53,155 nt of DNA. Source: Lentisphaerota bacterium (GTDB lineage Bacteria > Verrucomicrobiota > Lentisphaeria > Victivallales > Victivallaceae). Numbering within the stretch: the stretch's first letter is position 1; each line of letters begins with the position of its first letter. The stretch covers positions 1 to 53,155 of the forward strand of contig SUVY01000012.1 in assembly GCA_015061775.1 (NCBI GenBank), read 5' to 3'. The notes under the pieces were generated by a model. The model did not search any database. It saw nothing but the letters and a program-made list of their open reading frames with translations, and had not been told where the DNA came from. Of the stretch, positions 4,641 through 14,694 are shown in pieces. Both the position numbers and the translations under genes were made by a program.

Positions 4641-5882
4641 TCAAAACGGGTCGGGGGCGTTGGCGGCGAAGACCCGAAGGAAGTTTTTTCCGAGGATCTT
4701 TTCGATGGTCTCATCTGAAAAGCCGCGGGTCACCATTCCTACTGTGTAGAGCGGCCAGTTGATCCAGGCAAGAGAACCTGTGACGGTTTCCATCGGGTTT
4801 TTCGCTTTATGCTGATTCCTGTACCAGACTCCCCACCATTGGTTTCCGGTGAATTCTCTCTCGGAGGCTGGATAATACGGAAGATCTGACGTATCCCAGC
4901 TGTGGCGGTACTGCAAATCGGTTCCGATCTGCACGTGGTCGTCTCCGATGAGTTTGACGATGTATTCAAGGTGGTTGAGCAGCATAGGAAGATCGTCTGT
5001 GCCTCCGAGCATACCTGCCCAGGCATAGACTCCGACGAGTCCTCCGTTTTCTGCGATAGCCTTCAGCACACGGTCGCTTTTGCAGCGGATGAAATCATTC
5101 AGCGCCCTCGCTCCGGAGTGGGATGCCATGATGGGTTTGGATGAGGCTTTTGCCGCTTCGTAACTGCTCTGCTCTCCGGTGTGCGGAACATCGACGATTA
5201 TACCGGTCTTGTTGAGTTTTTTAATGAGTTCCAGACCGAGCTCGCTCAATCCTCCGTTTGCGGGTTCGGCGCAGCCGTCGGCAATAAAATTGCGGCGGTT
5301 ATAGGAGAGATGCATCATGCTTACTCCGAGGTGCTTCCAGTCGTCGATCCAGGAGAGCTCCTGCTCAGGAGACTGAAGTTCTCCGACGATCGGAGGTCCG
5401 TTGATGCTCCAGACTACGGCGATACGTCCGGAGTCGTTGATCTCTTTGATCTCCTGGGGACTTCCTGCCTGAGCTATGGTGTCTCTGAAATGGCGCAGCA
5501 GTTGAAAATTGCAACCCATACGCCTGATATCCTCTTCGCGGGATTTGCCTTCCGCAACCGTTTGAACGACGCAGTTCAAGCCGGAGGCGCGCAAGGCGGC
5601 ACGGAAAATCCTGCTGTTCTCTTCATCGCTGCAAATCGCATCGCATCTCGCGTATTCTGTTCGTTTCGCAAGTTCACGGTGTCCCACGTGACGGCCGAAC
5701 CAGTAGTTGTATTTCTCTTTGATTTTGTCGTTCCAGCTGTCCTCTGGAAGGAAGCAGAATCCGTCCATGGCGAACAGGTGTTTATGCAGCTCAAGACCAT
5801 GTTCAAGCTGTGCCTTGGTCGGCTGGATCGCCTGAAGTGCGCTGTTCCAGGCAAGCTCATGATTCTTTGAAATGAAATCCAT
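4641..5882 (-). CDS. M19 (renal dipeptidase) family protein lacking metal ligands
   Basis: 413 aa, a membrane-dipeptidase (peptidase M19) fold. The second half has the family landmarks: IIVDVPH (H234), SHSGARAL (H255), ENGGLVGV and GTDLQYRH. Catalytic M19 enzymes bind two zincs through an N-terminal HxD, a Glu, and two His. Here the N-terminal DGHNDLP equivalent reads DGFCFLP (residues 40-46, so both ligands are Phe), and the Glu of the VEGG motif is Asn161 (INGP). Only the two later His remain. Either the protein uses a different mononuclear centre or it is not a dipeptidase. No signal peptide is visible. Start ATG at 5882 follows GAGGAAC; it is 11 bp downstream of the pseudopilin stop and is the last gene of the seven-gene operon. 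Confidence 0.8.
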   Translation of the reverse strand: MDFISKNHELAWNSALQAIQPTKAQLEHGLELHKHLFAMDGFCFLPEDSWNDKIKEKYNYWFGRHVGHRELAKRTEYARCDAICSDEENSRIFRAALRASGLNCVVQTVAEGKSREEDIRRMGCNFQLLRHFRDTIAQAGSPQEIKEINDSGRIAVVWSINGPPIVGELQSPEQELSWIDDWKHLGVSMMHLSYNRRNFIADGCAEPANGGLSELGLELIKKLNKTGIIVDVPHTGEQSSYEAAKASSKPIMASHSGARALNDFIRCKSDRVLKAIAENGGLVGVYAWAGMLGGTDDLPMLLNHLEYIVKLIGDDHVQIGTDLQYRHSWDTSDLPYYPASEREFTGNQWWGVWYRNQHKAKNPMETVTGSLAWINWPLYTVGMVTRGFSDETIEKILGKNFLRVFAANAPDPF

Positions 5883-5893
5883 TTTGCAGTTCC

Positions 5894-6610
5894 TCAGAAT
5901 GTCATATAGTAGTTCCAGAATTTTCTGAATTCAAGATCATTGGTTATGGTAGTTGCTCCGTAGTGCTGAGGATTTGCCAAACCTTCGACGTGTCCATCAG
6001 CATAGAGGACATTGGGTCTGCCGTTGTGACGGATTTTCTGCTCATTGACAATGTCATCTCCGTAAAGATAGATGCGGCGGCTTGAATCCCAGTTGATACG
6101 GTAGGGCTTGGGGCTGGTGTTGCTCGAAGCAACGGCAAAATCCATGAATACAGCGATTGCGCTGGGATTTTTCTGCTTGGCGACTTGCACAAAGCCGACT
6201 CCGCGCTTGGTGTCCGGACCGTCTGCATTGATACCGTAACTGTATTGGATCTCCATGCCTTCAAGTCCGCCATCTCTCGGATCAGTATGGGCAGGGCAGA
6301 CCAGAGTTTTCTGCAATGTCTGCCATGAGATTTTCAAACCGTTGTAGTAGGGATTGACGTCGTGGCGCACCCAACGCTGCGCTGTGCCTTTCTTGGTCGG
6401 CATCTGGGAGGAGAACATCACTCCGTTATAAGTGTCTGTATAAAGACCGTTCCATGTTCCCATGGTTTTCAGATTGCTGGTGCATCCGTTGGTTTTGCCG
6501 CGCTCGCGTGCGCTTGACAACGCGGGCATCAGGATCGCCGCCAGAATGGCAATGATGGCGATAACGACCAGGAGCTCGATGAGGGTGAAACAGGATTTTT
6601 TGTTTTTCAT
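5894..6610 (-). CDS. Pseudopilin-like secreted protein with H-X9-DG motif
   Basis: 238 aa. The N-terminus is a type IV pilin/type II secretion class III signal: a short basic leader, then [20 protein letters not shown] from residue 8, with the conserved Glu5 of the mature pilin, so processing by a prepilin peptidase and inner-membrane anchoring are expected. The C-terminus carries H-X9-DG (H195 region: [12 protein letters not shown]), the mark of the DUF1559-like pilin family greatly expanded in Planctomycetes and Lentisphaerae. The function is unknown; surface glycan binding is a guess from context. It lies between the second beta-helix gene (29 bp) and the M19 gene (11 bp). Confidence 0.88.
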
Positions 6611-6639: not shown

Positions 6640-8481
6640 TTAAATCTCTTCTTTTATACCTGCGTCTTTGGCGAAATCGTCATCGGCACTCTGGAGAGCC
6701 CCGACGTATTTGAAGCTCTCAGGCATTCCTTTGACCGGAACTGACGGAGTGAACTCGGCGGGAACAAATGAGTTTTGTTTCCAGTCCGGAAGCACCGCTT
6801 TGGCGTTTCTGGTTGTCTGGCCTTTTACTGCGGGAAATACCGGATTATCTTTTCGTATGAGCGCAAATTTGTTGTTGACGTAAGTGTAGCTCTTCACGCC
6901 GCCTTCACCTTTTTTGCGCATGGAGCTGCTCAAGGTGCTGACGACGGCAAGGTTGTTATAGAAGTTTACGTTTCTGATGATCTGCACCGGTGCTCCGAGG
7001 TCTCCGACAAGGCGGAATTTCGGAGATATCACAGTATTATTGAAGATATGCATTCCCGGAATAGTGATATCGTTCCAGTTATAACCTGCCATATCTTTTC
7101 TGTTTACGACATTGGGGCGTTTCGCCTGCCCCGCCGGAACTCCGATTTTGAAGGCACTGAGATATCCGTCCTTGAACGCGTTTTTGGATGTGTAGTAAAA
7201 GATATTCTGATATACATAGACGGGCCCCGGCCAGGGAAGTCCTCCGAGCGGCTGGTAGGATACGCTCTGGAAGACATCCACAAATTTGTTGCGTCTGATG
7301 TGGCAGTTCACCGGATGGTTTTCCGCTGATATGGCGTTGTCGGAACAGCGGGAAAACAGACACTCCTCGATCACGGTATTTTCAGCTTTGTTCATATTGG
7401 CGATACCATCGAAGACGTTGTGGACATAACACTTTCTCATAGTCCAGTTTTTGCCGATATTGCGGATTATTCCTGTCTCATAATATACTTTTGTTCCACG
7501 GCTGGGGTGCTTGTGCACCCACCAGAAATGGCGGCGGTCGGCGGGATTTTTGATCGAGATTTTTCCGGAGGAAACCAACTCTATCAGCTCTGCGGTGTCT
7601 TCATAGAGCGGAAAATTGTGCCATTCGCATTGCTCAACGAGGATATTGTTGCTGGATTTGGCAAAACGCTCCGCGCTCTTGGAGTCTTCTCCGATGAATG
7701 TTCCGCTGACTCCTCCAGCCATGCAGCCGAGGAAGAGACAGTTTCTTACGGTGACATCGTTTCCGCAGACATAGACGGCGGTGCGGGACGGAGTCTCAAA
7801 GGTGATTCCGTCGATGATGACGTTGAGGCTTTTCCCCGGAGTGCCTTTGAGTCCGAAGTTGTAATAGACTGAGTTCGGAAGCTCTCCGTCGGTATGACCT
7901 CCTTTGGTCGGAGCCACTGCCATGATGTGTTTATTGGGGTCGGTCGAACCGTATTTTCCATCCGGACGCAGCCTCACATAGAGTTTTTTGGTTTTGCGGT
8001 CATAGAAAAATCCGTGACGCGGCCCCGGAACTCCCGGTCTTGCCTCAAATGTCATAAGCAGCTTGAGACTCTGGTACGGAAAGAGGTCCACTTCGCTGTA
8101 AAGCACACGCGGAGGATAGGGATGGACTGTCTTTGTGCAGTAAGTTTGGGTCTTTGCATCGTGAAGCTGCCACTTGACCGCTTTGGTGCGGATCGCTTTG
8201 TCGGCTCCCGTGACGATGACCCGGTTCTTTTTGACCTTGTCGGCGCGGAAAGTAACGGGAGCATCTTTGGTTCCGAAACGCTTGATGTGGACGGCTCCGA
8301 AATAGACTCCGGGCTTTATTATCACAGTGTCTCCGGGATTTACCCTGTCAGCTGCTGCCTGAATGGTATTGAACGGCTGTTTTTCGCTGCCGTTTCCGCC
8401 GGAAGGAGCGTTGACGTCAACATACAGCTCCGCTCCGCGGCAGAGACATAGCGGAAGAAGTAAGAGCAGTAGTTTCTTCAT
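6640..8481 (-). CDS. Secreted right-handed parallel beta-helix protein (DUF1565-like)
   Basis: 613 aa from the ATG at 8481, chosen because AAAGGA lies just upstream and it begins a clean signal peptide ([16 protein letters not shown]). The N-terminal '[22 protein letters not shown]' type region followed by [11 protein letters not shown] is the DUF1565 / pectate-lyase-superfamily entry strand. The middle part (about 230-480) has beta-helix coils with repeated 'tvrNClF', '[19 protein letters not shown]' units. Such proteins are typically polysaccharide lyases, hydrolases or carbohydrate-binding proteins; no catalytic family can be assigned from sequence alone. Fifth gene of the operon, 22 bp after the phosphoesterase. 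Confidence 0.85.
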
Positions 8482-8503
8482 AGTTTTTCCTTTCATTTTC
8501 ACA

Positions 8504-10156
8504 TCAGTAGAGTTCAATTCTCACATAATTGAATTTTACTTTCAACTTGCCGCCGTTCTTGATATACAAATTGAGCTTTCCGCCCGGGTTGCGCTTGAGG
8601 CTGTAATCCACAACATAACGTATTCCGCCGGAACTTCCCAGACTTGTGTGGCAGCGGACCGGAATATATATCGGATTGGCAGGATTGTCGTCGCGGACTA
8701 TCAGCAAAGATGAGCGGTCTGCTGCATCGTGGCATATATCCAGCTCGAAAATGAAACGGGCGTTCTCTTTTCCGCTCCAGGGGTAATCGGGGAAATACAA
8801 TCTTGTTCCGATTTTCTCCTCTTTTACATGATAGAAGCCGTCTTCAGCTGCCTTGTGCACTTTGTCGGCGTCTTTGCCGATGTACCCGTAGCGGCAGATG
8901 CACTCCTTCATCGGATCCTTAGACTCAAAAATGACTTTTGCCGCCGGTTTGCTGCTTGTCTGCACGGGAGTGTAAAGCGGAGCACCGGTTTTGCCTGAGA
9001 AGTGGACAGGAGTGATCTTAGTCCGGTAACTCTTTCCGGCATCGAAGTATCCATGGCTGAACGTGCAGGAATATGACGGAGCGATCTCTTTGTTCGCGGT
9101 GAAAAAGTGTCCGGGCTGTTTGTGGCGCGAGAACGTTCTCCATTTTCCGTTTTCCTCTATCTGGAATTCGATATCATACTGGTGGACACTCTCTGCGGGG
9201 GAGGCTTGCGGAAACGTGATGACAACTCCGTTTTCCGCGGATGCCGCCGATGCTTTGGCATTTGCTGAAAACTCCGGGGCGACCGAATTTTTCAGGCGGT
9301 TTTCCGCATTGTACGGAGCATTGTTGCCGTCAAAGGGCAGAGGAATACTCCATGGAGAATCGGCTTTGTACTCTTTTTTGCTGTCGGTGAAAAAGCGTCT
9401 GAAAACGATTTTATTGCTGTAAACTTCCATGATCGCCGCGACATCGCAGCTCTTTTTGACTCTCATGCTTCCGTGCAGAAATCCCGCATTGACCGCGGTG
9501 AATTTTCCCTGCCAGATATTCCGCTCATTGGTGAGCAGCGAGTGGATGTGTCCGGATATGTGTATGGCATCGGGGTGTCTCTCGACCAGAGCTTTTGCGG
9601 CTTTGTTTCCGTTCATACTGTTGACGACTGTGTCGTGAAGCGGAACATGGTCGATGATGAAAAACGGTTTGTTTCCTCTTGCTTTTTCAGCCTTGTCCAG
9701 CAGCTCCCGGTACTTTTGCGGTTCATGGTACTGCGGATAGATGACAAAAGTATAGCCTTTGAAGTTTATGATATCATACGGATCGTGGGAGATCTCAAGA
9801 TATTTCTTCACATCTTTGAACGCACTCCACGGATCATTGGCTGGATGTTTGATGATATCGTGGTAGGCGTAGGCAAAAATTTCCTGCGGTCTTGTTTTTG
9901 CGTCGGGAAAGACAGAGTTGAACGTTTTTCGGTAATTGATGTAGGCTTGCTGATCGTAAATATCGGCGATATCTCCGGCATTTACGATCAAATCGACCTT
10001 ATGCGCCTTGAACAACTCAAGCGAATCTTTCAGGATACTGCAGGAACCGGGATCAGATGTGACGTGCGTATCACTCATGATTCCTGCCCGGAAAACCGGT
10101 TTGGCAAATAGTGTCAGCGCGGAAAATGACAGCAGTGTAAACAGAAACTTTTTCAT
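8504..10156 (-). CDS. Secreted calcineurin-like metallophosphoesterase
   Basis: 550 aa from the ATG at 10156 (signal peptide KKFLFTLLSFSALTLFA). The N-terminal 250 residues form a metallophosphoesterase domain: SDTH (DxH), NAGDIADI (GDxxD), an AYHD where most members have GNHD, DHVPLHD and SGHIHS (GHxH). The remaining 300 residues look like beta-sandwich or accessory domains that would bind substrate or partners. The substrate is unknown; in a glycan operon, removal of phosphate from a sugar or polymer outside the cytoplasm is plausible inference. It lies between the FAD oxidoreductase (22 bp) and the beta-helix gene (22 bp). The GN to AY change in the GNHD motif is unusual but keeps the metal-binding His. 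Confidence 0.85.
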   Translation of the reverse strand: MKKFLFTLLSFSALTLFAKPVFRAGIMSDTHVTSDPGSCSILKDSLELFKAHKVDLIVNAGDIADIYDQQAYINYRKTFNSVFPDAKTRPQEIFAYAYHDIIKHPANDPWSAFKDVKKYLEISHDPYDIINFKGYTFVIYPQYHEPQKYRELLDKAEKARGNKPFFIIDHVPLHDTVVNSMNGNKAAKALVERHPDAIHISGHIHSLLTNERNIWQGKFTAVNAGFLHGSMRVKKSCDVAAIMEVYSNKIVFRRFFTDSKKEYKADSPWSIPLPFDGNNAPYNAENRLKNSVAPEFSANAKASAASAENGVVITFPQASPAESVHQYDIEFQIEENGKWRTFSRHKQPGHFFTANKEIAPSYSCTFSHGYFDAGKSYRTKITPVHFSGKTGAPLYTPVQTSSKPAAKVIFESKDPMKECICRYGYIGKDADKVHKAAEDGFYHVKEEKIGTRLYFPDYPWSGKENARFIFELDICHDAADRSSLLIVRDDNPANPIYIPVRCHTSLGSSGGIRYVVDYSLKRNPGGKLNLYIKNGGKLKVKFNYVRIELY

Positions 10157-10178
10157 AACGGAATTTTCCAGCAAAACT

Positions 10179-11399
10179 TCAAACTGTTTTATTCTTTACA
10201 TCTTTGAGCCACTGCATACAGTTCTGGCGGTCGAGTTCCGCGTAGAGCGTCTGATAATCAGGAACTCCGAGCGCGGCGGCGATACCGGCTGCCTGACCGG
10301 TTCCGATACATTGGGCGGCGAGCCTGATGGCGGTGACTGCACGCGGATCGATATCGATGATGCGTCCCGCAGTAAGCAGGTTGCTGATTCCTCTGGCGCG
10401 GATGGCTCCGTATGGAACGGCAGGGTCTCCGATGACCTTCGCTCCCCAGGGAGACTCATATTTTTTCACATAGTGTCCTCCGATATAATCACTGCAGAAG
10501 GCGACGGGTTCTGATGTCATTTTCTGATTGAAGAGATCATCCATTTCGATCCGGCAAAGTCCGCGTACCGAGCGGGTGTAACGTACTCCGACAACGGGAG
10601 CAACTTTGGTCACGACCGCTTCGGAAAAACAGGGAATGTTGCGGCGCATGAACTCCATGATGGGATCGATCTGGGCAAAGAGTTCTCCATACATTGCGCT
10701 GAACACATCAGGATCGGCGGCATTGCCGGTCACGGCAGTAAGGTTGAGCAGCACATCACCTGTTTCCGGCAGCGGAAGTCCCATAAAAGAGTTCTGGATC
10801 CTGACCGGAAATTCGCTCACGTGCTCTTTGAATAAACTCCTCACTTCATCTCGGTCGAATCCTTTGACGTTGCGCACCTTGAACATCAGAGTTTTGGTCA
10901 TGCTCACTTCATCGTCCGGAACGACTGTTTCGGCTCCTGCAAGCACGCTGAGCGCAGCTGATCCTGTGGCATCGACAAAGGTATTTGCTCCGAGCTCAAG
11001 CAGTCCGCCAGAGGTGGTCACGGTAACGCTTTCGATGCGGTCTTGCGAGCGTTTTACTCCGCAGAGAGGAGCGTTGAAAAGCATCTCAACTCCGTGATCC
11101 TGCAGAACTTCGAGCATTGCCCTCTGCAGCTGATCTTCGTGAGCCAGTATCCTGCAGGTGTTTGACCAGAAGTAGGCATTGTTTTTGCGCAGTTTATCTG
11201 AAAGTATCTGTCCGACTCCGGTACACCACTCGGCTTTGCGCCAGCCGCTGAGCACCGGAGTTATAGTGTAAACTGCAGTTCCTCCGACGCACGGCATACT
11301 GTCGAGAAGCAGAACTTTTGCTCCTGCGGCGGATGCTCCGACGGCGGCAGCAAAACCGGACAGTCCAGCTCCGGCAATGATGCAGTCAAATTTTTTCAT
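10179..11399 (-). CDS. FAD-dependent oxidoreductase
   Basis: 406 aa, cytoplasmic. The N-terminus has the Rossmann dinucleotide fold: IIAGAGLSGFAAAVGASAAGAKVLLLD, then a GGTA motif. VDATGSAALSVLAGAE (about residues 138-153) and the C-terminal RGISNLLTAGRIIDID...RLAAQCIGTGQAAG complete the FAD_oxidored family pattern. These enzymes are common beside glycan-degrading genes in Lentisphaerae and Planctomycetes, with substrates mostly undefined. The ribosome site AAAGGC precedes the ATG. It follows the GntR-SBP gene by 16 bp. A second family member lies at 26631-27803 in the other glycan cluster. Confidence 0.88.
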   Translation of the reverse strand: MKKFDCIIAGAGLSGFAAAVGASAAGAKVLLLDSMPCVGGTAVYTITPVLSGWRKAEWCTGVGQILSDKLRKNNAYFWSNTCRILAHEDQLQRAMLEVLQDHGVEMLFNAPLCGVKRSQDRIESVTVTTSGGLLELGANTFVDATGSAALSVLAGAETVVPDDEVSMTKTLMFKVRNVKGFDRDEVRSLFKEHVSEFPVRIQNSFMGLPLPETGDVLLNLTAVTGNAADPDVFSAMYGELFAQIDPIMEFMRRNIPCFSEAVVTKVAPVVGVRYTRSVRGLCRIEMDDLFNQKMTSEPVAFCSDYIGGHYVKKYESPWGAKVIGDPAVPYGAIRARGISNLLTAGRIIDIDPRAVTAIRLAAQCIGTGQAAGIAAALGVPDYQTLYAELDRQNCMQWLKDVKNKTV

Positions 11400-11415: not shown

Positions 11416-12651
11416 TTACAGTGCTATTTGATTTTCCAAAATTTTTTCGATCGCTTTTCGGCGCCGCTCGGCGTTTATCTTCTCTTCATTGAGCAGAGTG
11501 GTGAACTCTTTTATCGTAAGACGGTGACCGGCAAACTCCTTCAAACCCATAAGTATTACCGCCGTCGAGAGCGGATCGATGATTTCACGCGGATAATGGA
11601 TGTGATCTATCTCATCGAAGAAAATATCATCGCTCAAACTGCCGTTGTACTTGCAGTTTACCGCAACTTCGCGGTTGGCGGGCAGATTGTCGCAGTCCCG
11701 GGCGACCTCATGCTGAAAGGGCTCCGCAAGAGTGTTTACAGCAAGCTGAAAAGCGATTTCCGGATAGCGCGATGTAAGCGGAACGAATACGGCTTCCGAT
11801 ACCGGCTGACAATACCGTTTACCGTTCAGTTCGGGCATAGGAACAAGCCCGCAGGATCTCTGCACATCCGGATCGAAGATATCTGTGCGGGTCACTACCG
11901 AAAATATCCGTTCGTGGCTCGGGATCTCCGACTCAGGAATAAGCTGCATTTTTTCATAACTGTGCAGTGCTTTGTCCAGAGAGCCTGAACTGTAAGCCAT
12001 CGAGAGCAGAAGACGGTTGGTCTTTTTGCTGTCAGGACGCAGCTCCGGAGGAACTTTTTCGAGCAGTTTTATGATGTCATCGCAGGTAAATGAGCCTGAG
12101 GAAAACTCAGGACAGTACTTTTTCATCAGCTTTTTGTTGTAAGCAAGAACGCATGGGCAGAATGAGTACGCTACTGCATAGACCGGAGTTCCGATATGGT
12201 GGAACTCAAAAACCTGATCGAAAAATTTACCGCTCTTTTTGAGTTTGCGGATGATCTCCTGCGGCCACGGCATGAAGTGCGATGAGTAATTCATCGGTAT
12301 GGTGGTCGGAAATATAACGATATCCGCTTCTTCAAAGTTGTTTACAGTTTCGATGGATACATCGGGCACTCCGTTGAGCATGATTTCCGGATACTTGCCG
12401 GCAAAATAGCAGGTTGATCGCTGCCAGAGGCGCAGCACCTTTTTTTCCGGAGGCACAACAAAAGTTCCCCGGCGGTGCACCTGACGGACGAGACCTTTGT
12501 CTTTCAGAACGTTTATCGCCCGGGACATGGTCATGCTGGCAACAGAAAACCGGGAGGCAAGCTCTTTTTCATTGGGAAGCTTGCCGGAGATCTCTCCGCA
12601 CCTTATTTTCTGCTCGAGAGTATCAGCGATTTTTTCAAAACGTATTGTCAT
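11416..12651 (-). CDS. GntR-type winged helix fused to a solute-binding-protein fold
   Basis: 411 aa, cytoplasmic (no signal peptide). Residues about 1-70 are a GntR winged helix: KLPNEKELASRFSVASMTMSRAINVLKDKGLVRQVHRRGTFV. The rest (about 80-400) resembles family 1 extracellular solute-binding proteins: EEADIVIFPT, then GTPVYAVAYSFCPCVLAYNKKLMKK (compare the GLPY...LYYNKDLF pattern) and DDIIKLLEKV. A plausible reading is a one-component regulator that senses an oligosaccharide in the cytoplasm with a domain borrowed from ABC importers, instead of the usual UTRA or LacI-like sensor. Its ATG overlaps the stop of the upstream beta-helix gene (ATGA), so it is translationally coupled and probably autoregulated with the operon. 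Confidence 0.85.
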   Translation of the reverse strand: MTIRFEKIADTLEQKIRCGEISGKLPNEKELASRFSVASMTMSRAINVLKDKGLVRQVHRRGTFVVPPEKKVLRLWQRSTCYFAGKYPEIMLNGVPDVSIETVNNFEEADIVIFPTTIPMNYSSHFMPWPQEIIRKLKKSGKFFDQVFEFHHIGTPVYAVAYSFCPCVLAYNKKLMKKYCPEFSSGSFTCDDIIKLLEKVPPELRPDSKKTNRLLLSMAYSSGSLDKALHSYEKMQLIPESEIPSHERIFSVVTRTDIFDPDVQRSCGLVPMPELNGKRYCQPVSEAVFVPLTSRYPEIAFQLAVNTLAEPFQHEVARDCDNLPANREVAVNCKYNGSLSDDIFFDEIDHIHYPREIIDPLSTAVILMGLKEFAGHRLTIKEFTTLLNEEKINAERRRKAIEKILENQIAL

Positions 12652-14582
12652 TTCAGGGAATCCAGCATTTGTTCTGTTTCCAGCATTTTATTGTAAAGGG
12701 ATGTGAAGTGCTCCATAAGTTTGTCGTCTCCGGCTTGGATCGCTCCTGCAGCTGGAGCTTTGCCGGAGAAATATCCCGGCTTGAACCCCGGAAGTGCCGG
12801 AACGTTCAATCCATTGAACTCAAAGGGTTTTGATACATCTATGGCGCAATCTTTTGCCGGAGAATTTTCCTTCAATCTTATATCAGGAAGTTTTTTGTTG
12901 AAGAGGTCAACGCATATCGTATCGTTTTTATCCAGACTGACTATTTTATTGAACTTGTCAACCCCCTCCGCCGGAGCAGAGTTCTTGTGATTTGCCGCAA
13001 CATACATCAAATTTCCGGCAAGGACGTGGTGGTGTTTCACTTCCCACGAAGAGTTGGATTTTGCGATGTTGTTCATGAAGTAGAACGGAAGTGCCTGTTT
13101 GCGGAAACGCGCGTAGTAGTTCTTTATCGGCCATGCTCCGGCAGAGCCTCCGCAGAAAGTGTTGTTGTAAAGGAATATTTTGCCGGGATCGAACGGGGCA
13201 GGAGGATCAGCTTTATATATTCCTTTTTTGTCAAAATTGACTTTGTCATGGCCTTTTTTGTGTGAAATTCCGTAAATATGCAGTTGTTTTGAGTTGGGGT
13301 TCAGAAAGAGATTGCGGTAGTGGTACTCGGTACGGTAAAATCTCTCATGCCGCCAATCGTGGATGCGCAGATTAAGTCCGCACTCCATAATGAGATTTTC
13401 ATAGAACTCTCCGCTGGAAAAACCGCCGGTGACGATTCCGCAGCTGGACATTTTTCTGATGCTGTTTCCATAGACTTTTGCTCCCGGACCGTGTGCGCGG
13501 ACGGCAACGAGTCCGTTGACAAAAACATTTCCGTAAACGCTGCAGTTGCTGCCGTTAAAGTTAACTCCGCAGTCATCGGATTTGGCGACGCCTATAATGT
13601 ATTTGAAGACAAGGTAGGTCACTCTGCTGCGTTTGTCTCCGGTATGATATTTGTTGCGGATAAAGCCTAGAGTGAGGATGTTGTTGCGCACAGTCACGCT
13701 GGACGCCTCTTTTTCGACCAATACGCGGTTGGCTCCATTCATAAAAAGAGAGTTTTCAATAGTTATATTATTGCTCTTTTCAATGATGTGCACGCAGTTT
13801 TTGCTTCCGCGGATATAGAGATCACTCAAAACGACATGGGAGGCGTTTTTCAGAGTAACTCCATCGCCGTAAGAGGCAGTTATGGTGTGTACTGCGGGTT
13901 TGCTGTCATCGGCAAATCTGATGTAGAGATTGCCTTTTGACCAGCCGCAGATGACATTTCCGATGGTTTCCCAGAAAGGAATTCCGTCTATTTTGAAAAA
14001 ATCGTGGTAAACTTTCAGATCGCGTCCGGCTGCCAGGAGATCGAAGCCAGCCATGCGTTTGCTGGTTTTCGGATTGTGGTTTCCTGTAATGAGAGCAGCG
14101 GTAAGTTTGTCCGGAATCTGCTTTCGGCGGGGTATAAGCATATTGAGTTTGTTGATCTGAGCGATCATTTTGCCGTCGAGCATCACGGTATCAGGACGCT
14201 TAGAGAGTTTGATTTTCCAGACATTTTCTCCGATTTCGGGAGCGGGAGTCCAAGCGGTCAATATTTTGCTTTCAGCTTCGAGAATGGACTGCAGCTTTCC
14301 GTCTGCGGAGCGGGTTCCAATGATCTTCAACGGTTTTTCAGCAGTCGCCCGGGTGGTGATCGTGGTGTTGCTGCGGTAGATTCCCGGAAGTATCCTGACG
14401 GTATCTCCCGCCCGGGCTTGATCGACAGCTTTCTGAAGGGTTTGAAGCGGAGCATTTTCTGTGCCCGGATTTTTGTCATTTCCTGATGTCGAAACAAATA
14501 TTTCCGCAGCAAATACCGCTGCTGGTGCCAGAAAAGCGGATATGAATAAACTTAATTTACCCCCAAATGCGGTCGTTTTCAT
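12648..14582 (-). CDS. Secreted right-handed parallel beta-helix protein
   Basis: 644 aa from the ATG at 14582, selected for the GGAGG 10 nt upstream; longer in-frame starts have none. Signal peptide (LFISAFLAPAAVFA), then a DUF1565-like entry (IFVSTSGNDKNPGTENAPLQTLQKAVD...GDTVRILPGIY) and beta-helix coils with 'NNITIENSLFMNGAN', 'SSVTVRNNIL' and 'NCSVYGNVFVNG' units. It is related in build to 6640-8481 but is clearly a different paralogue. Probable polysaccharide lyase, hydrolase or binding protein, with no catalytic residues assignable. First gene of the seven-gene operon; its last codons overlap the regulator gene by 4 bp. Confidence 0.85.
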   Translation of the reverse strand: MKTTAFGGKLSLFISAFLAPAAVFAAEIFVSTSGNDKNPGTENAPLQTLQKAVDQARAGDTVRILPGIYRSNTTITTRATAEKPLKIIGTRSADGKLQSILEAESKILTAWTPAPEIGENVWKIKLSKRPDTVMLDGKMIAQINKLNMLIPRRKQIPDKLTAALITGNHNPKTSKRMAGFDLLAAGRDLKVYHDFFKIDGIPFWETIGNVICGWSKGNLYIRFADDSKPAVHTITASYGDGVTLKNASHVVLSDLYIRGSKNCVHIIEKSNNITIENSLFMNGANRVLVEKEASSVTVRNNILTLGFIRNKYHTGDKRSRVTYLVFKYIIGVAKSDDCGVNFNGSNCSVYGNVFVNGLVAVRAHGPGAKVYGNSIRKMSSCGIVTGGFSSGEFYENLIMECGLNLRIHDWRHERFYRTEYHYRNLFLNPNSKQLHIYGISHKKGHDKVNFDKKGIYKADPPAPFDPGKIFLYNNTFCGGSAGAWPIKNYYARFRKQALPFYFMNNIAKSNSSWEVKHHHVLAGNLMYVAANHKNSAPAEGVDKFNKIVSLDKNDTICVDLFNKKLPDIRLKENSPAKDCAIDVSKPFEFNGLNVPALPGFKPGYFSGKAPAAGAIQAGDDKLMEHFTSLYNKMLETEQMLDSLK

Positions 14583-14611
14583 CGTAACTTTGCCTCCTTC
14601 CGGAAATGAAA

Positions 14612-14634
14612 AAATCCCCCCGATGCGGAGATTT
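14612..14634 (-). promoter_or_regulatory. Leader hairpin with U-run, candidate attenuator
   Basis: On the minus strand AAATCTCC pairs with GGGGATTT (one G-U) around a small loop, followed by TTTTTTC. This is the shape of an intrinsic terminator. It lies between the candidate promoter (14667-14694) and the ribosome site of the beta-helix gene, so read-through would control the whole operon. No known riboswitch is recognised. Confidence 0.45.
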
Positions 14635-14666
14635 TTGAACAGTTTCTGTAACATAGTCCACAGAAT

Positions 14667-14694
14667 AATATACATGGCAAAATTTCAAATGCAA
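14667..14694 (-). promoter_or_regulatory. Candidate sigma70 promoter of the seven-gene glycan operon
   Basis: Minus strand: -35 TTGCAT (14694-14689), 16-bp spacer, -10 TATATT (14672-14667), about 85 bp upstream of the beta-helix start codon. Confidence 0.55.

Follow-up and report, generated by a model that had tools for sequence, protein, structure and literature searches.

The gene at 4641-5882 of the window, by which we mean the whole 53,155-nucleotide stretch of Lentisphaerota DNA analysed here, belongs to a branch of M19 dipeptidase homologues that have given up part of the zinc site. It is a member of this branch and not an exception, and the direction taken by the first-pass annotation was right. 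We lean towards regarding its product as a catalytically competent enzyme other than a dipeptidase, built on the M19 amidohydrolase-type barrel and descended from an old clade without the alpha site. Hence the database name 'zinc dipeptidase' probably hides a different enzyme with the rest of the active site kept; PF01244, the sole family model matching the gene, also names it dipeptidase-type. Loss of the metal site within the M19 fold already has precedents in 2I5G and PvdM, and what is new here is a clean class boundary, together with the signature and the sugar context of the proteins carrying Asn at position 161. M19 proteins lacking both H42 and E161 are called altered below, and are divided into N-type (N161) and Q-type (Q161).

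The open reading frame begins with ATG and closes with an in-frame stop; its strand was absent from the first-pass annotation. In a Pfam search the protein matched PF01244 (Peptidase_M19) with an E value of 1.3e-56 and 192.5 bits against a curated cut-off of 26, which establishes M19 homology, and the match begins at profile position 31 of 319. The NCBIfam search with this protein returned no family. No signal peptide was recognized by eye. The gene and the codons of interest are as follows.

4641..5882, minus strand: 413-aa M19-like (PF01244) protein from the N-type part of the altered clade, closing its array
5751..5759, minus strand: F42-C43-F44 codons, in the register of the canonical strand-1 HxD (numbered from 5882, where the ORF begins)
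5400..5402, minus strand: N161 codon, at the place of the canonical bridging Glu (sequence and joint alignment)
5301..5303, minus strand: Y194 codon, at the place of the canonical strand-4 His (alignment)
5181..5183, minus strand: H234 codon, retained beta-site His (alignment)
5118..5120, minus strand: H255 codon, retained beta-site His (alignment)
5079..5081, minus strand: K268 codon, a gain of the altered clade (alignment)
4917..4919, minus strand: D322 codon, retained strand-8 Asp (alignment)

The residues F42, F44, N161, H234 and H255 were all found as the first-pass annotation had claimed. Compared with the nearest homologue, the protein showed a dN/dS of about 0.06 at a dS of 1.6, which is near saturation. 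This ratio, the open frame and the invariant residues ruled out a sequencing error or a decaying gene. A plus-strand ORF of 229 aa at 5181-5870 was also rejected as the gene, as it lies antisense to the conserved minus-strand frame.

The register was set by joint alignment with canonical M19 proteins from genomes of the same phylum. The canonical 'IDTHxDTP' falls over 'MDGFCFLP' of the window protein in an unambiguous register, 'SIEN' or 'GIEG' over 'SING', and 'LTHMLNN' over 'LSYNRRN'; the strand-5 and strand-6 His correspond to H234 and H255, and the strand-8 Asp coincides as well. The same columns were placed on GliJ when the family profile was compared with PDB sequences. A conserved HxD elsewhere near the N-terminus would undo the claimed loss, and no such displaced HxD emerged. 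The sole His-x-His nearby, H33/H35, was discarded as a candidate, because H33 sits in a helix (23-35) before strand 1 and is found in 45/71 canonical proteins too; H35 shows no conservation across the family.

An AlphaFold2 model of the protein, computed with 70 relatives, was confident, with a pLDDT of 93.7 and a pTM of 0.93. Amidohydrolase-type barrels bear their active sites at the C-terminal strand ends, and in the model these ends, or the positions directly after them, are occupied by residues 42-44, 161, 194, 234, 255 and 322. Foldseek placed 2I5G on top (E 1.6e-24), and all further hits through rank 20 were M19 relatives. VIA-align superposed the model on the GliJ mutant with Z 40.3 (313 residues, 2.0 A), on 2I5G with Z 40.1 (316 residues, 2.4 A) and on human DPEP1 with Z 38.5 (318 residues, 2.2 A), and the next family after M19 followed at Z 16.6.

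The canonical enzymes human DPEP1 (1ITQ), SCO3058 (3ID7) and GliJ (5LWZ) have PF01244 in common with the window protein, as well as the barrel (VIA Z 38.5-40.2, 314-320 residues aligned), the two beta-site His, the Asp of strand 8 and a conserved Arg at 266. They differ from it in carrying the HxD, the bridging Glu and the strand-4 His, which is H152 in human DPEP1. None of the three is present in the window protein: the alpha-site HxD reads F42-C-F44, the bridging Glu is N161 and the strand-4 His is Y194, while the beta-site pair and the strand-8 Asp of a functional dipeptidase persist as H234, H255 and D322.

Searches with PF01244 covered 194 genomes from the phylum, with matches in 36, and 28 genomes carrying a member of the window-gene family, and further copies were added. 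The resulting alignment of 122 M19 proteins comprised 71 canonical, 48 altered and three unclassed ones. All 71 canonical proteins had H42, D or H at 44, and E161; among the 48 altered ones neither H42 nor E161 occurred, and H234, R266, H255 and D322 were each kept in 48/48. Thirty-five altered proteins, including that of the window, were N-type, with N at 161 in 35/35, and the other 13 were Q-type. As L stands at position 44 in 2/35 N-type proteins, F44 is not absolute.

The columns separating the two classes are few and clean. The altered clade lost H42, E161, H194 and D324. Tyr at 194 was present in 48/48 altered and 0/71 canonical proteins, the latter having H (67/71) or W (4/71) there; K268 was counted in 46/48 against 0/71 and G236 in 48/48 against 2/71. 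In the maximum-likelihood tree all altered proteins formed one clade (SH-aLRT 98) and the N-type proteins another within it (99), and a second tree leaving out 12 long-branched or unclassed rows supported the altered clade at 99. As the altered proteins form a single clade, the losses are best read as one event, and the residue counts are thus not independent events. By this reading of the sequences, the alpha site and the bridging carboxylate were probably lost once, in an old clade.

Residues conserved in the loop after strand 4 raise the question whether a binuclear site might have been rebuilt with its chemistry unchanged, using C204, E206, H191 or H33. C204 (46/48) and E206 (47/48) are indeed conserved in the altered clade. 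However, C already occupies position 204 in 14/71 canonical proteins, H191 is confined to the N-type (Q in 13/13 Q-type), and H33, as noted above, belongs to a helix before strand 1 and is common in canonical proteins. We therefore consider a rebuilt site very improbable; E206, with 8/71 in the canonical class, is one of the marks of the clade.

The window protein has the full set of features that define the clade of 2I5G, namely loss of H42 and E161, Y194, E206, G236, K268 and its place in the tree. The first-pass annotation had described it as a homologue missing three of five zinc ligands. Three of the five positions are changed in the gene and throughout its clade, so that the losses were correctly described; its description omitted the coupled change of His to Tyr at 194 and the gained E206, G236 and K268. 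The idea of a lone odd homologue is not supported, the change being common to a large old clade with a crystal structure (2I5G) and a proteobacterial dgc context.

The family of the window gene is widespread. Homologues (E up to 1e-3) were carried by 29/60 of the nearest genomes, and a scan of a genome-contig collection yielded 384 relatives, the best 80 of which were kept. These 80 come mostly from MAGs and belong to Lentisphaerota, Acidobacteria (Bryobacterales), Bacteroidota (Daejeonella, Sphingobacteriaceae), Poribacteria, Armatimonadota, Latescibacterota, Planctomycetes and others. When they were aligned with the window protein (81 rows), the substitutions proved to be kept, so they are not due to chance: position 42 was F in 39 rows and Y in 42, F44 and N161 each occurred in 80 rows with one gap, H234 in 80/81, and H255 and D322 in all 80 rows with a letter there. 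One row deviates, being gapped at 161 and carrying a different residue at 234; it is probably that of L064, in which the frame breaks off after 145 residues. The family copy at locus L064 (7361-8599), from a goat-rumen Lentisphaeria MAG, contains three TGA codons in frame and has decayed in this one genome. In our search of open-licence papers, none was found on the N-type clade.

Given a fold and best matches that are those of M19 dipeptidases, the protein could still be a dipeptidase or aminoacylase that cleaves amide bonds, for example in amino sugars or peptide-linked glycans, at a mononuclear beta site. In the sister branch, relatives adjoin peptide ABC transporters and, in an archaeon, a D-aminoacylase gene, and alkaline-ceramidase-like amidase genes lie near 4/80 loci of the window-gene family. 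Against this, the strand-4 His of 67/71 canonical enzymes has become Tyr in every altered protein, and the bridging Glu is gone. Moreover, canonical M19 proteins are also present in 23/28 genomes with a member of the family, so in these 23 the altered copy is not the sole M19 dipeptidase candidate. The window genome (98.4% complete) has the altered copy alone, with no canonical M19 found, and its copy is therefore not a second paralogue. On this evidence amide-bond cleavage by a mononuclear site appears unlikely.

The fold might also be kept in a non-catalytic binding or maturation partner. PvdM (3B40), a solved M19 relative, offers a parallel: like the window protein it has the M19 fold with metal ligands lost, and it has a reported non-dipeptidase role. 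It reads DSRITVP for DxHxDTP, a stretch too weak to count alone, and has Q for the strand-5 His. Passages in pyoverdine reviews describe PvdM as indispensable to the formation of pyoverdine, or as aiding the binding of ferribactin to the tyrosinase PvdP (PMC6206403; PMC13119372). Unlike the window protein, PvdM is periplasmic, and the window protein keeps H234, which sets it apart from the PvdM type. The window clade retains both His and the strand-8 Asp in 48/48 proteins, beyond what a scaffold needs, whereas PvdM has lost one such His, and the genomic partners of family members change between phyla. A non-catalytic role is thus quite improbable.

The enzyme reading, which we prefer, draws on the same residues. 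His, Asp and Arg kept absolutely over phyla are otherwise hard to explain, and invariant polar residues together with the low dN/dS of about 0.06 argue for a working protein. The loss of the alpha-site ligands, beside an invariant strand-8 Asp and two invariant beta-site His, fits a new activity or a mononuclear site, as the first-pass annotation had suggested. The beta site would accommodate at most one metal, between H234 and H255, or would stay empty, since two His and an amide do not build a binuclear site; one metal and none deserve about equal weight. D322 would activate water or take a proton from the substrate, and Y194 would occupy the place of the lost strand-4 His. The corresponding Arg of canonical enzymes holds the dipeptide carboxylate. 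R266, and probably K268, would likewise hold a carboxylate of the substrate, as suggested by the kept Arg and the Lys gained two residues on.

The top Foldseek match, PDB 2I5G, is a P. aeruginosa 'amidohydrolase' released in 2006; it is Q-type and lies in the altered clade. No function for it was found in the open-licence literature searched. Like the window protein, 2I5G has the HxD replaced (DGLIIAKW), Tyr at 194, GCxE, K268, and both His and the Asp kept. It differs in having Gln at 161 (GFQN) and not Asn, and in a shorter N-terminus (325 aa). Its orthologues also stand in another context, dimethylglycine demethylation clusters, whereas the window family stands in sugar loci. Homologues with about 70% identity in Paraburkholderia lie between serine hydroxymethyltransferase and dgcA/dgcB-like genes, and a homologue with 64% identity in Methylobacterium adjoins a DUF5943 gene. 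Plasmid records label proteins of this sister branch 'membrane dipeptidase' or 'dipeptidase'. In Vibrio natriegens a 'predicted dipeptidase (pepD)' precedes dgcAB, an arrangement shared with P. aeruginosa, and the passage in PMC12093977 gives it no role; the genes that a root-exudate expression study found differentially expressed include one labelled 'Membrane dipeptidase, dgc operon' (PMC8079746). No dgc genes were found among the scanned neighbours of the window gene, which with N161 is distinct from the dgc-operon type (Gln161 and a dimethylglycine operon).

The surroundings of the window gene are of a different kind. It closes a glycan-type array, as the first-pass annotation had proposed, being the last of seven same-strand genes with gaps of -4, 16, 4, -14, 29 and 11 bp; a CreD-like gene follows 386 bp on. 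Scans for promoters and terminators gave results no better than shuffled sequence. The six genes preceding it are as follows.

12648..14675, minus strand: right-handed beta-helix / DUF1565 protein, one of two beta-helix proteins and at the head of the tight array
11416..12651, minus strand: GntR-type regulator, its C-terminal half matching oligosaccharide-binding proteins (4r9f, E 1.2e-5; 6rjy, E 0.003)
10179..11399, minus strand: FAD-dependent oxidoreductase (PF12831)
8504..10174, minus strand: calcineurin-like metallophosphoesterase
6640..8517, minus strand: right-handed beta-helix protein
5894..6610, minus strand: pseudopilin-like protein with an N-terminal methylation motif, 11 bp upstream of the window gene

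The first 75-100 residues of the two beta-helix proteins weakly match the xylosidase 3vst (E 0.0016 for 6640-8517 and 0.0031 for 12648-14675), and both proteins are possible uncharacterised glycan-active enzymes. The model of the regulator was poor (pLDDT 64) and was not used, so that its sugar-binding half is assigned from the 4r9f and 6rjy matches. This C-terminal half resembles the oligosaccharide-binding proteins of ABC systems, and homologues of the regulator precede family members in several Lentisphaerota loci.

Neighbours of family members were compared over the 80 loci, with genes called by a greedy longest-ORF script and not by a trained gene finder. The nearest relative, L046 (87% identical), retains the regulator, FAD oxidoreductase, phosphoesterase, beta-helix and pseudopilin genes. 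One beta-helix cluster, assigned on L043, occurs in 16/80 loci and lies directly upstream in 15; a pseudopilin-like cluster occurs in 14/80, and one Gfo/Idh/MocA cluster in 11/80. For the neighbour count 31/80 loci were set aside (the 30 nearest and the partial L068); of the 49 that remained, 35 had neighbours on the same strand. Ten of 89 proximal genes were dropped (>900 aa), leaving 79, and 79 of 105 distal genes from the same loci were drawn at random. Outside the nearest Lentisphaerota group, the 79 proximal same-strand genes included 8 Gfo/Idh/MocA, 5 DUF6807, 4 xylose-isomerase-like and 3 acetyl-xylan/glucuronoyl-esterase-like genes. All four families were absent among the 25 families listed for the 79 distal genes, which means at most one gene each. 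With one distal gene assumed, the Gfo/Idh/MocA difference (8/79 vs. at most 1/79) gave a Fisher p of 0.034, a modest enrichment, and the 5/79 of DUF6807, all from one Bacteroidota group, gave p 0.21, non-significant alone. Gfo/Idh/MocA genes are common in such genomes. In L071 the M19-like gene is surrounded by xylose-isomerase-like, two Gfo/Idh/MocA, DUF6807, esterase and Amidohydro_2 genes. The genomic partners of family members differ from phylum to phylum. A gene directly downstream of the family member in L052 (9262-12846) has an exo-rhamnogalacturonan-lyase-like N-terminal domain (PcRGLX_1st), and its cluster is also represented in L049, L053, L058 and L067.

From these neighbours we infer that the substrate might be a small carboxylate-bearing carbohydrate derivative, such as an aldonic or uronic acid, a lactone or a keto-glycoside, which the cell would form internally from oligosaccharides that the GntR regulator of the operon senses. 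The window protein is most likely an amidohydrolase-fold enzyme of the cytoplasm that binds no more than one metal and acts on a sugar derivative bearing a carboxylate; it is probably not a dipeptidase. The argument for a sugar-derived substrate of the N-type comes solely from genomic context. Sugar chemistry would not be clade-wide, as the sister branch is linked with dimethylglycine operons, with peptide transporters and, in an archaeon, with a neighbouring D-aminoacylase gene. LigI offers a parallel from a different family of the superfamily, being an amidohydrolase-fold lactonase that works without a divalent metal and has sugar-lactone relatives.

A more specific proposal, which we put forward only tentatively as a minority possibility, is that the Asn-type clade constitutes a class of its own, comprising enzymes that use no metal or a single metal assisted by Lys. 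In these, an amide with K268 and Y194 would replace the zinc and the bridging carboxylate, and the enzymes would catalyse hydrolysis or an elimination reaction on keto-glycoside or lactone intermediates produced by neighbouring Gfo/Idh/MocA or FAD oxidoreductases. If so, an unrecognised step of oxidative glycan breakdown would be present in many phyla under the name 'membrane dipeptidase'. For annotation, a test at four columns (42, 161, 194 and 268) separates true dipeptidases from a branch needing its own name; it works because the binuclear site was lost cleanly, probably once, and the changes that went with the loss are fixed. It also joins the glycan-locus gene and the pepD of dimethylglycine operons in one question, namely what the M19 barrel does without its zinc pair.

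A second M19 variant was noticed within the canonical class, where 13/71 proteins have HxH in place of HxD at strand 1. The loci concerned are L168, L187-L193, L195, L198-L200 and L208, in genomes of Acidobacteria, Bacteroidota and Latescibacterota type. The three unclassed proteins are L132 with T161, L203 with N161 in the absence of Y194, and L229 with E161 and D-x-P at strand 1, and they represent possible independent changes of the active site.
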